DNA of 64,000 bases, taken from the NCBI RefSeq assembly GCF_022414535.1, contig NZ_JADWYM010000011.1, positions 1-64,000 on the forward strand, in the 5' to 3' direction. The first letter of the stretch is position 1. Every line of letters starts with the position of its first letter. Below the pieces are notes generated by a model. That model worked only from the letters and a program-made list of their open reading frames with translations. It had not been told where the DNA came from and searched no databases. The translations under genes and the position numbers were made by a program. Source of the DNA: Streptomyces sp. MUM 2J. Lineage in GTDB: Bacteria; Actinomycetota; Actinomycetes; Streptomycetales; Streptomycetaceae. Shown piece by piece: positions 20,347 through 49,401 of the stretch.

Positions 20347-21489
20347 TCAGCCGGTACGCCGGGTGACGAACTCGGCCAGGGCGAGCAGGCCCTCCGCCGA
20401 CTCGGGCTCCGGGAGGGCGCGGGACAGTGCCTGCAGGGCGCGGGCCATCCGATCGGCGGCCTCGGCCTGCGCCCAGTCCCGCCCGCCGGCCCGCTCCACC
20501 GCGAGCGCCGTGCCCTCCAGGTCCTCTTCGTCGCCGGGTCTCTCGTACAGCGCGGCCAGTGCCTCCGCCGCGGGGGTGCCGGAGGTGAGGGCCGCGACCA
20601 CCGGCAGGGACTTCTTGCGGGCGGCGAGGTCCGCGCCGGCCGGCTTGCCCGTGCGCCGCGGGTCGCCCCAGATCCCGATGACGTCGTCGATGAGCTGGAA
20701 GGCGAGCCCGGCCTCGCGTCCGAACGCGTCCAGCGCGTCGACGTCCGGCGCGCAGGCCCCCGCGTAGAGGGCGCCGATGGCGCAGGCGCACCCGAGCAAG
20801 GCACCCGTCTTGGCCTCGGCCATGTCGAGCACCTCGCCGAGGCCGACCTCGGTGGGCCCACGCCCTTCCAGGGCGGTGTCCGCGTGCTGCCCGGCGCACA
20901 GTTCCACGACGCAGTCCGCGAGCCGGGCCGCGGCGGCGGAGGAGGCCGGATGCGGGTCCTGGGCGAACAGTCCGAGCGCGAGCGCCTGCAGGGCGTCGCC
21001 CGCCAGGATCGCGTCGGCGTCGCCGAAGACGGTCCAGGCGGTGGCCCGGTGCCGCCGGGTGGCGTCGCGGTCCATCACGTCGTCGTGCAGCAGTGTGAAG
21101 TTGTGGACGAGTTCGACCGCCACCGCGGCCCGCAGGGCACCGTCCCTGGCCGCGGGGCCGCCGAGCGCGGCGGCCGCGGCGAGGACGAGCGCGGGACGCA
21201 GGGCCTTGCCGGCCCCGCCGGTGGCCGGGCTGCCGTCGGCGTGCTGCCAGCCGAAGTGGTAGAGCGCGACGCGGCGCATGGGTCCCGGCAGGCTGTCGAG
21301 GGCCACGCGCAGTTCCGGATCGACCGATGCGCGCGTGCGCCGCAGGATCTCCTCCGCCTCGTGCCCGTCCACCGCGTCGGCGGGATGTCCGTCGCCCGTG
21401 CTCGCGAGGTGTGCCGGCCTCGCCTGTGGGCCGATGCGGCGGAGCGCTCTGCGCTGTGTGTCGACCGGTCGGATCAGGGAATCGGCCAT
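20347..21489 (-). CDS. family 2 encapsulin cargo: polyprenyl diphosphate synthase
   Basis: A 380-residue trans-isoprenyl diphosphate synthase. The first Asp-rich motif is HDDVMD (LVHNFTLLHDDVMDRD), with KALRPALVL before it. The second motif region is AFQLIDDVIGIWGDP (DD-V-I-G rather than a full DDxxD). The first about 50 residues (MADSLIRPVDTQRRALRRIG...) are flexible and precede the fold, as expected of encapsulin cargo-loading domains. It condenses IPP with allylic diphosphates; the product length is not predictable here. It directly follows the encapsulin shell gene (118-bp gap, same strand). Confidence 0.9.
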   Translation of the reverse strand: MADSLIRPVDTQRRALRRIGPQARPAHLASTGDGHPADAVDGHEAEEILRRTRASVDPELRVALDSLPGPMRRVALYHFGWQHADGSPATGGAGKALRPALVLAAAAALGGPAARDGALRAAVAVELVHNFTLLHDDVMDRDATRRHRATAWTVFGDADAILAGDALQALALGLFAQDPHPASSAAAARLADCVVELCAGQHADTALEGRGPTEVGLGEVLDMAEAKTGALLGCACAIGALYAGACAPDVDALDAFGREAGLAFQLIDDVIGIWGDPRRTGKPAGADLAARKKSLPVVAALTSGTPAAEALAALYERPGDEEDLEGTALAVERAGGRDWAQAEAADRMARALQALSRALPEPESAEGLLALAEFVTRRTG

Positions 21490-21607
21490 CGGTGCTCCCT
21501 CCGAGAGCCGGCGGACGAGGGGGCGGGGGCTCCGTGCTCTCGTGGACGCCCGCGGTACGCCCGCCCCGGAGGGAGGGCGCACGGCGTCGCCGCGGCGGCG
21601 GGCAGGA

Positions 21608-23014
21608 TCATCGCCAGCGGCCGATCTCGACGTTCTCCAGGACACCGAGGGCGTCCGGGACCAGGACCGCGGCGGAGTAGTAGGCCGTGACGAGGTACTT
21701 GATGACGGCCTGTTCGTTGATGCCCATGAACCGGACCGACAGGCTCGGCTCGATCTCGTCGGGGATGCCGGCCTGGCGGAGGCCTACGACGCCCTGGTCC
21801 TCCTCGCCGAGACGCATCGCGATGATCGAGCTGGTGCGTTCGGGCGTGACGGGGATCTTGTTGCACGGGTAGATCGGCACGCCCCGCCAGGTGGGGATGC
21901 GGTTGCCACCGATGTCGATGGTCTCGGGCACCAGACCGCGCTTGTTGAGTTCGCGGCCGAAAGCGGAGATCGCGCGCGGATGGGCGAGGAACATCTTGGT
22001 GCCGCGCCGGCGGCTGAGCAGTTCGTCCATGTCGTCGGGGCCGGGCACCCCGTCGTGCGGCTGGAGCCGCTGGTCGTACTCGCAGTTGTGCAGCAGGCCG
22101 AACTCGCGGTTGTTGACCAGCTCGTGCTCCTGGCGTTCCTTCAGCGCCTCGACCGTGAGCCGCAGCTGCTGCTCGGTCTGGTTCATCGGCTGGTTGTACA
22201 GATCGGCCACGCGTGAGTGGATGCGCAGTACGGTCTGGGCGATGCTCAGTTCGTACTCGCGGGGCCGGGCCTCGTAGTCGACGAAGGTGTGCGGGATGTC
22301 GGGCTCGCCACTGTGGCCGGCGGCCAGGGCGACCTCCTTCTCGCCGTACTTGTTGGTCTGCTGCTGCGGGACGGAGCGCTGCTGCTGGAGGTGGGCGCGC
22401 AGGGAGTCGGCGCGCTCGGCGACCTGGCGGACGTCCTGGCGGGAGAGGACCAGCACCGTGCAGGCGGTGTCCGCGCGGGCCGTGTACTCCCAGATGGCGT
22501 CCTCGGAGAGCAGCGCGGCGTCGCCGAAGTAGGCGCCGTCGGCGAGCACGCCGAGTACCTGGTCGTCGCCGTAGGGGCCGGTGCCGACCTTCTCGACCCG
22601 GCCGTGGGCGAGCAGGTAGACCTCGTCGGCCCGGCTGCCGAAGGAGGCGATGACCTCGCCCGCGGCGATCTCCCTCTGCCGGCAGCGCTGGCCGAGTTCC
22701 GCCAGCACCTCGTCGTCCTCGTACGCCCTCAGCGCCGGCAGTTCGCCGAGCTCCGCGGGGATGACCTCGACGCGGTCACCGGTCTTCACGAACGTGATGC
22801 GCCCGTCGCCGACCGCATACGTCAGGCGCCGGTTCACGCGATACGTGCCGCCCTGGACGTTCACCCACGGAAGTGTCCGCAGCAGCCAGCGGGAGCTGAT
22901 CTCCTGCATCTGGGGTGCGGACTTGGTGGTGGTGGCCAGGTTCCGCGCAGCCGCCGTGCCGAGACTCTGCTGCGGCTTGCCCTGCTCCGTGCGGACCTCT
23001 TCGCCTACCGACAT
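21608..23014 (-). CDS. family 2B encapsulin shell protein with cyclic-nucleotide-binding-like insert
   Basis: A 468-residue HK97-fold shell protein of the SrpI / major membrane protein I group. Residues 1-90 contain the N-arm and [22 protein letters not shown]. Residues about 91-210 form a CRP/cNMP-binding-like domain inserted in the E-loop ([40 protein letters not shown]). The remaining P/A domains carry [20 protein letters not shown] and [20 protein letters not shown]. The insert defines subfamily 2B. It probably self-assembles into a cytosolic compartment packaging the downstream polyprenyl synthase. Divergent from an amidase gene. Confidence 0.93.
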
Positions 23015-23319
23015 AAGGAACTGCCCTCCCGGTCATGCAACGGCGCCGAACTGCGCCGGGCATCGATCTCGCGACCAGCCTTTCATCACGCAACGTGCCG
23101 GTGCTATTACACGAAAGAGCGGGATTGGATCTCCGTCGACTGGGCAAAAAGAAGGATCCTGTCCAGCACCTCCGCCCCACGGGTCCCTCCGTCCCCTGTC
23201 CGGAACTGCTCGCACACCGTACGAACGATGTGTGCCTTGTCCGGCGGTTTCGGTACAAGCGCCGGTATGCGGCGGCTGCGACCGGCAGCCGCGGAACAGC
23301 AGCACGAAGGAGGCGGCAC
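23015..23319. promoter_or_regulatory. encapsulin / amidase divergent upstream region
   Basis: A 305-bp gene-free region between two divergent starts. It is less GC-rich than its surroundings near 23095-23160. The amidase ribosome site GAAGGAGG is at 23306-23313. No convincing -35/-10 pair could be fixed. Confidence 0.4.
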
Positions 23320-46930: not shown

Positions 46931-48307
46931 TCACCGCGGCACCGCCTTCACCAGGAGGTTGTGCGGACGGAGTGTGATCCCGACCCGGATGGTGTCGTCC
47001 GACCCGGTCACCTGCTCGAAGCGGTACGCCGTCGCCAGCGCCGCCGTGATCAGGCTGAGCTGGGCCATCGAGAAGTGGTCGCTGGGACACTTGCGATTGC
47101 CCACGCCGAAGGGGTGCATGGCGTGTTTCGGGACGTCCTTGGCACGCTCCGGAAGCCACCGGTCCGGGTCGAACTCCAGGTTGTCGGCGTACGACCTGGG
47201 GTCGCGCTGGATCGCGAAGGGGCTGTACACGATGTCGGCCCCGGCCGGAATGCGATAGCCGCCGAGTTCCGTGTCGGCGACCGCCCGCCGCGTCAGAATC
47301 CAAACGGCCGGGCGCAGGCGCATCGTCTCGACCACGACATTGTTGGTGTGCCTGAGCTTGCGGACGTCCTCGAATGCGACCGGACGACCGCCGGTGACGG
47401 ATTCGACTTCCGCACGCACCCTGTCCGCGTGTTCAGGGTGCTCGGCAAGTGCCTGAAGCAACCACATGATCGTGGAGGCGACGGTTTCGCTGCCCGGGGT
47501 GAGTATCGCGACGACCTGGTCGTGGATCTCCTGTTCGCCGATGGGGTCGCCGTTCTCGTCCTTTGCTTCCAGCAGCGCCGTCAGCAAATCGTCCGGCTTT
47601 TGACCAGATGCCCGTCGCTCGGCGACGATCTCGTCGACGAGGAGATGCAAATCGGCCAGCGCCCGATTGAATTCACGGTTGGCCGGGAGGGGCAGGTTGT
47701 ACAGCGGACCGAGCGGTACCACCATCCGGCGGTACATGCCGCGGAAAACGGTGGCGAGGGCGTTGCACAGCCGCTCGGCGCGCTCGTCCATGTACTCGCC
47801 GCGCAGCAGACAGCGCGCCGCGATGCGCACGGCGACACGGAACGACTCCGAGGTGCAGTCGATGGTCCCGCCGGCGCCCCAGCGCTCGGTGAGCGCGTGC
47901 GCCTCCTCCTCCATGATCGGCCCGTAGGCCGGAATGGCGTCCAGCCGGAAGGCCGGCTGGATGGTCCGCCGCTGGCGCCGATGCTGCGGCCCGTTGGCCG
48001 TGGCCACGCCCTTCTTGCCGAGCAGGCCCTCCAGCGACTCCCACAGCGGCCCGGCGATATGGTACTCGGGGCTGAGCGCGAGTGCGCCGGTCAGTTCCGG
48101 GGTGGTGACCGCGTAGACGGTCTTCGGGCCCAGCTTCAGGCGGACGACGTCCCCGTGGTCGCGCAGCTGGGACATGAAGGCCAGCGGGTCGCGCAGCAAC
48201 TGCCAGCCGTGGCCGAGGGGTGGGACGCCTCCGCCCGCGAGGGGCGGTTCGCGCAGCTCGGGCCCCGGCGGCCCGGTCGTCCCGGGCTTCACCTGTTCGA
48301 CGGTCAT
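46931..48307 (-). CDS. cyp170A1: cytochrome P450 CYP170A1-type albaflavenone monooxygenase
   Basis: A 458-residue P450. Heme-binding loop [11 protein letters not shown] (Cys ligand). ExxR is ETMRLRP. The I-helix [13 protein letters not shown] replaces the usual AGxxT. It oxidises epi-isozizaene through albaflavenols to albaflavenone. Residues 250-254 read DENGD where S. coelicolor CYP170A1 has DDNGD, a motif proposed for its second, terpene-synthase activity (recalled). The start ATG overlaps the synthase stop by 4 bp. Confidence 0.95.
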
Positions 48308-49401
48308 TTCCCACCTGCCGCTTCGTTGTTGACGTACGGGGGCGTGGACCGGTCGTCCCAGCTGTCGACCATGTAGCGGCCGGACTCGTGGTGGAACCAG
48401 TAGACGGAACTGAACCAGTTCCGCATGTTCGCGACGCAGGCGTGCACGGCGGCGCTCAGCGCCTTTCCGCGGACGGTGCCGTCGGCAAGGCCGTCGGCGA
48501 AACGCAGTGCGCCCCGTTCGGCCTCCATGAATTCTGATATGCATGTCTCGACACGCCGCCTGACTTCATCGACGGCCTGTTCCAGTGTCAGCCCCTCGTG
48601 CGTGATGAGACTGATTCCGAGATTGTGCACCTCGTCGCCCGCTATTTCTTTCGGGAGCGAACACAGGTCGTTGTACCAGGCGGCGAATTCCTGGCTCAGC
48701 AGGGCTGCCCGCCGAAAGGCCGGGTTTTTCCGTACGCGCTCCGGGAGCTCGCAGCCCACGCTCGGTTCCAGCAGATCGGTCCAGATTCGGTGCGCGAAGG
48801 TGAGCCGGCGCAGTTCCAGGTATTCCTCGACCGTGGGGACGATGCCCCCGACGCGGTTGCGGAACTCCCGGTCGTACGCGTCGATCACTGCGTGGAAGTG
48901 CCGGGCGAACCGGGCGTTCCAGGTACCGGGCAGGAACGCGTACAGCCGCCCCACGCTGTCCGCCAGCCCCGCGACCAGCGGGTCGTCGTGGTTCCGATGG
49001 GCCCGGGGGGAGTCGAGAGCCGTGTGCAGCATGCGGCGGAGCTCGTCCCAGGCGTCGGCACGGTGATGGACGATGTACCGGTCGTGGCGGTCGTCCCAGA
49101 CGAAGAACCACGCACTGTAGTCGGCGATGGCCTGGAGGACGTCGTCGGAGGCGCCGATGTAGTAGCCCGCCATGAGGTCCGTGTAGCACAAGCCGTCGGC
49201 ATATTCCTCGACCTTGTCCGCCGGCATGAGCCGTTTTTGCAGCAGCCAGGTCCGGGTCTTCTCCTGAAGCCTCGGCCAATACGGGTGGAGTTGCCGGGGA
49301 AACGCCGCCTCGATCACCGGAAGCGCCAGTGAGGGCGGCACGGCCACCCGGGCCGGTGCCGCCGTGGCGCCGTATGTGGTGCTGTATGGGAAAGCGTGCA
49401 C
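48304..49401 (-). CDS. cyc1: epi-isozizaene synthase (sesquiterpene cyclase)
   Basis: A 365-residue class I terpene synthase. The Asp-rich motif DDRHD is at 103-107 and the NSE triad in NDLCSLPKE (Asn244, Ser248, Glu252). Aromatic residues WFFVWDD line the pocket. Converts farnesyl diphosphate to (+)-epi-isozizaene, oxidised by the coupled P450. C-terminal effector [12 protein letters not shown] is intact. Confidence 0.96.

Follow-up and report, generated by a model that had tools for sequence, protein, structure and literature searches.

The window, by which we mean the whole stretch of 64,000 nucleotides that was analysed, carries on its minus strand a gene for a Family 2B encapsulin shell protein, followed by a gene for a polyprenyl (trans-isoprenyl diphosphate) synthase, here called PT (Table 1). 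The shell protein is made up of an N-arm, an E-loop with an inserted CRP-like domain (approximately residues 110-205) and an HK97-type capsid domain (residues 216-466), the last of which is matched over its length by the Pfam SrpI-like family PF19307 (E 1.2e-136, 454 bits, cut-off 22.8). The full protein scores 769.4 bits (cut-off 400) with NCBIfam NF041163 (encap_f2b), labelled 'family 2B encapsulin nanocompartment shell protein', and is 98% identical to the shell of S. actuosus. Its best match among solved structures is PDB 9bhu (E 1.4e-201, residues 8-467), followed by 9bix and 9bje. The cNMP-type domain separates the N-arm/E-loop part from the capsid domain and is collinear with the solved 2B shells, and the initial annotation of a Family 2B shell with a CRP-like insertion is borne out by all three profiles (NF041163, PF19307 and PF00027). 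A profile search of the genome gave a single PF19307 match and no second shell gene. Thus, the shell is single-component.

Table 1. Features of the shell-PT locus, in window coordinates.
Feature	Position	Strand	Basis
Family 2B encapsulin shell protein, 468 aa	21608..23014	-	Pfam PF19307 and PF00027, NCBIfam NF041163, PDB 9bhu
CRP-like (cNMP-binding fold) insertion, shell residues 114-201	22412..22675	-	Pfam PF00027 (cNMP_binding), E 2.4e-18
Intercistronic stretch with G+C-rich inverted repeat after the shell stop codon	21490..21607	-	Sequence, alignment of 69
Polyprenyl (trans-isoprenyl diphosphate) synthase, putative cargo, 380 aa	20347..21489	-	PF00348, NF041169, AlphaFold2
Predicted disordered N-terminal tail, PT residues 1-37	21379..21489	-	pLDDT <50

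In the CRP cassette, the cyclic phosphate is held by an arginine. Trp175 of the window's shell aligns with this phosphate-binding Arg of E. coli CRP, and the residue expected of cyclic-nucleotide-binding proteins is therefore absent. Trp occupies the same position in 121/122 aligned shells (120/122 distinct), comprising 81/81 close shells and 40/41 others; L124 has His. For a related Family 2B shell, a passage in Dutcher et al. (2025, PMC12407261) states, citing a bioRxiv report, that the insertion domain was shown to bind no cyclic nucleotide. Because of that statement and the Trp at the Arg position, cyclic nucleotides are unlikely to be the ligand of this domain, and the initial annotation was right to leave its ligand open.

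The PT gene likely starts at the ATG at 21489, which is preceded by GGAGGGAGC, with GGAGGGAG upstream, and has a strong ribosome site. The longest frame, opening with GTG at 21645, had been taken initially; that codon lies inside the shell gene, and it was rejected in favour of the ATG with its ribosome site. Of the 80 named loci, 55 have an in-frame ATG 80-150 nt past the shell gene together with a 4-mer resembling a ribosome site. This simple ATG-plus-site pattern fails in the other 25, including the PT-less locus L017, and some of these seem to use a GTG start overlapping the shell stop codon. The protein matches Pfam PF00348 (E 3.5e-54) and scores 477.8 bits (cut-off 450) with NCBIfam NF041169, named 'family 2 encapsulin nanocompartment cargo protein polyprenyl transferase'. 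This model begins at PT residue 45, so the N-terminal tail plays no part in the match. Both genes of the pair originally proposed, a Family 2B shell with a polyprenyl synthase neighbour, are accordingly present and named by NCBIfam above the cut-offs. The genome has four PF00348 genes: the encapsulin-linked PT and one each on C65, C12 and C6. The C65 gene adjoins two SQS_PSY genes and the C12 gene lies near one; by their layout, we take these to be hopanoid-type and carotenoid-type clusters, respectively.

Both Asp-rich motifs of trans-isoprenyl diphosphate synthases are found in PT, as DDVMD (residues 136-140) and DDVIG (268-272). The motifs were scored in 97 PT genes (95 distinct), from which the fragments L016 and L051 had been removed in advance: all have Asp at positions one and five of the first motif and Phe at -5, and 96/97 keep the DD of the second motif. 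The second motif lacks its last Asp and reads DDxxG, with Gly in 96/97 relatives and one gap; Gly is also present in the hopanoid-type paralogue, L083. Among such enzymes, C15-C20 products go with an aromatic residue at -5 where the first motif has no insertion. The closest solved fold is 3nf2, a S. coelicolor polyprenyl synthetase (TM 0.83 by query length, 0.93 by target length), and GGPP synthases rank second and third; among NCBIfam models, too, the runner-up is a GGPP synthase, IdsB (NF045549), at 343.7 bits, below its cut-off of 475. On the strength of the -5 rule and these similarities, the product is predicted to be short (C15-C20), most likely GGPP. As a solved orthologue of PT, 3nf2 was ruled out: it is 44% identical to the window's PT, and its aligned sequence nearly matches L083, which sits in the genome's own hopanoid-type cluster without an adjoining encapsulin.

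The pairing of the two genes is strongly conserved. In 79 of the 80 best named loci, remnants included, the shell gene is followed by a same-strand PT match no more than 1 kb away, which argues that the pairing is not due to chance. The exception is L017, from a metagenome bin, in which the shell gene is followed by a GNAT gene. Within the 79, the PT of L016 is a decayed remnant beside a kept shell gene, those of L030 and L051 are cut off by a contig end, and the reading frame seems broken in those of L013 and L061. The PLP-dependent enzyme and Na/H exchanger genes of the window have homologues in 65/65 full-length named loci, upstream by median offset; thus, the locus occupies a stable chromosomal place. 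In a class-level search, an SrpI-like gene was found in 116/394 genomes. From this search, 39 further shell loci were chosen, not at random and in some cases since a PT had already been seen there; a PT adjoins the shell gene in 20 (two of which duplicate L039 and L047), seven have a terpene-cyclase match without PT, and neither passed the threshold in the remaining 12. By its methyltransferase neighbour, at least one of these 12, L132, resembles a locus of the 2-MIB-synthase type.

The shells of L017 and L016, without a PT and with a decayed one, would fit a shell that has a developmental role of its own, like the paralogue EshA, with PT as a later and dispensable partner. From gene order, SCO5249 (eshB) of S. 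coelicolor is presumably the orthologue of the window's shell gene. PMC3878966 is reported to describe SCO5249 and SCO7699 (eshA) as cNMP-type paralogues that are both up-regulated in development, which would also fit such a role; SCO5249 further appears in a transcriptome table comparing mycelial stages (PMC3610822) and among possible direct targets of AtrA repression (PMC13170358). However, the PT gene is kept in 78/80 relatives, four of them with a contig end or apparent frame break, and the two losses may be recent events or artefacts of assembly. We therefore regard a dispensable PT as quite improbable. Positions 3360-3702 of L017 and 9400-10500 of L016 offer natural examples in which to ask if a shell can function by itself.

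The initial annotation described a long flexible N-terminus on PT as the expected cargo tag. The flexibility is upheld by prediction: in an AlphaFold2 model built from an alignment of 40 (mean pLDDT 88.6), residues 1-37 fall below 50, and confidence is mostly high afterwards. The rest of the description fares less well, as the length is not conserved and a similar tail occurs on the shell-less L083. Tail length was counted up to the first invariant helix residue in 40 PT genes, of which one is the window's and 39 come from the 97 distinct relatives, with starts picked by a simple ribosome-site score that may be wrong in single cases, as in L021, where PT could start a few codons further up. 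It ranges from 8 to 68 aa with a median of 36, and is at most 25 residues in 13/40 genes and at most 18 in 10/12 more distant partners. A far longer tail is seen in L041, where the conserved VDP of the first helix comes approximately 200 residues in. In L083, which has no encapsulin nearby, approximately 41 residues precede the equivalent helix. Thus, the tail alone is no evidence of loading.

Short peptides recur at the N-termini of 78 close PT genes, which include the window's and had their starts chosen; the rows are related, and the following counts are not independent events. M-[AGT]-[EDG]-[FSYL]-[MLTVIS]-[TASM]-[EDKRAQG] is found within the first 40 residues in 52/78, mostly at the very N-terminus and followed by a variable linker, and a common form in this Streptomyces group is M-[AGT]-E-[FS]-x-T-E. 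MTE[ASTI] stands at the start of 9/78, and an ERRxxIGTQ-like stretch is present in 14/78. The window's PT (MADSLIRPV...) matches none of the three forms.

No terpene cyclase is present in the shell-PT operon, in agreement with the initial statement that none accompanies the pair. That statement does not extend to the window, in which the genes at 48304-49401(-) and 46931-48544(-) score above the NCBIfam cut-offs for epi-isozizaene synthase (708.4 bits, cut-off 675) and albaflavenone monooxygenase (855.5 bits, cut-off 700), respectively. These two genes lie approximately 25 kb from the shell-PT pair, and nothing in the present analysis ties them to the shell. In the Family 2B loci, LGT[SA][AG]AR occurs outside shell genes in twelve stretches, eleven of them distinct: L095 (the same genome place as L142), L100, L123, L132, L134, L137, L142 (two), L146, L147, L159 and L161. 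It lies just beyond a terpene-cyclase match in L123, L134, L137, L142, L146 and L147, and closely resembles the shell's own N-arm segment SLGTAAAR, suggesting that this tag may mimic the N-arm.

A six-frame search of the 80 PT-type loci for the terpene-cyclase-type tag gave no match outside the shell. Together with a tail that is neither conserved nor peculiar to shell-linked PTs, this would suit a PT that is made with the shell and works outside it, either on the exterior, on the CRP-like domains or merely as a co-transcribed enzyme. The tightness of the gene pairing, seen in nearly all named loci and in more distant genera, speaks against PT working outside, as does the statement in PMC12407261 that related encapsulins enclose terpene cyclases. 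An external PT thus appears unlikely. If PT is instead enclosed, it is a tentative and rather doubtful possibility that the PTs of Family 2B shells are loaded by a short start peptide or a folded surface rather than by a long disordered tail. Such a route would differ from that of the terpene-cyclase partners, whose LGTSAAR tag would copy the shell's own N-arm LGT[SA]AAR, and a single kind of shell would in that case admit each of two cargo classes in its own way.

Family 2B operons of the PT type are already known. Andreas and Giessen (2021, PMC8346489) give 900 of them, 888 in Actinobacteria, and the features listed there, namely a shell with a cNMP-type insertion, a PT in the operon, an actinobacterial host and an unannotated disordered PT N-terminus, recur in the window, the last by prediction. 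The differences are minor: that paper places 50-100 disordered residues on PT, whereas 37 are predicted here and the pre-helix stretch of the more distant partners is far shorter. The paper also states that the tails yielded no conserved targeting motif. Because the class was published in 2021 and both proteins have NCBIfam models, the window's locus is an ordinary member of a named class. A search of the open-licence PMC literature found no title on an encapsulin-enclosed prenyl synthase.

Solved Family 2B shells include 9bhu/9bhv/9bi0, 9bix and 9bje, and the window's shell aligns with them over nearly its full length. We take 9bhu to be a 2-MIB-synthase shell, with a cargo type different from PT. 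Entries 9bix and 9bje are presumably the two S. lydicus shells of PMC12407261, from a putative xylulose kinase system. That system has two shells, whereas the window's genome has one shell gene.

Taken together, the NCBIfam names, the conserved pairing, the alignment to 9bhu, 9bix and 9bje, the catalytic motifs and the operon class published in 2021 make it probable that the window holds a single-shell-gene Family 2B encapsulin operon of the PT type, whose shell encloses a PT that makes a short prenyl diphosphate. Against loading stand the PT-less L017, the decayed PT of L016, and the tail, which is variable and matched by that of a shell-less paralogue. By analogy with a studied relative, approximately 60 shell proteins would assemble into a T=1 capsid 28 nm across, on whose exterior the CRP-like domains would sit. 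This shell would enclose the adjoining synthase, probably as dimers, and the enclosed PT would use IPP to extend DMAPP, GPP or FPP, yielding a short chain. The outer domains may have a gating role or sense some ligand other than cyclic nucleotides. It is a reasonable inference that the shell isolates an isoprenoid chain-elongation step. The comparison narrows two points, the stretch that is a candidate for the loading signal and the ligands that the outer domain is unlikely to bind, and the conserved Streptomyces locus is a tractable one in which to study what purpose the enclosure of an isoprenoid chain-elongation enzyme would serve.

Between the two genes, the window has an imperfect inverted repeat, GTGTnCCCGCCC-4 nt-GGGCGGGTACAC, at 21541-21605 (-), which is conserved in many of L002-L081. 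The exact half-site occurs in 47/161 loci, nearly always in the intercistronic stretch, with L031 and L036 having it elsewhere. Intercistronic stretches of the window and 68 of the 80 loci were aligned (69 in all); 12 loci whose stretch is absent, changed or runs into the PT start were excluded in advance (L003, L004, L006, L007, L017, L022, L026, L037, L046, L067, L074 and L081). RNAalifold predicted no structure from the 69 aligned stretches. With an 11-pair structure imposed, 86.6% of cells are paired, compared with 45-61% when the structure is slid and 85.3% with shuffled letters (2/500 shuffles reach the observed value). Cells changed on both sides number 12 against a shuffled mean of 4.7 (2/500), and pairs with a change on both sides number five against 3.6, a value matched by 131/500 shuffles. 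The covariation is thus weak and mixed, and the repeat is conserved as sequence. A conserved RNA hairpin between the genes was therefore not accepted; the repeat may act as RNA or as DNA. The repeat could limit PT expression relative to that of the shell.

Upstream of the shell gene, approximately 70 bases at 23075-23145 (-) are highly conserved in relatives, and far more so than the rest of the 330 bases aligned from 80 upstream regions. This stretch probably holds the promoter and regulator sites of the shell gene.
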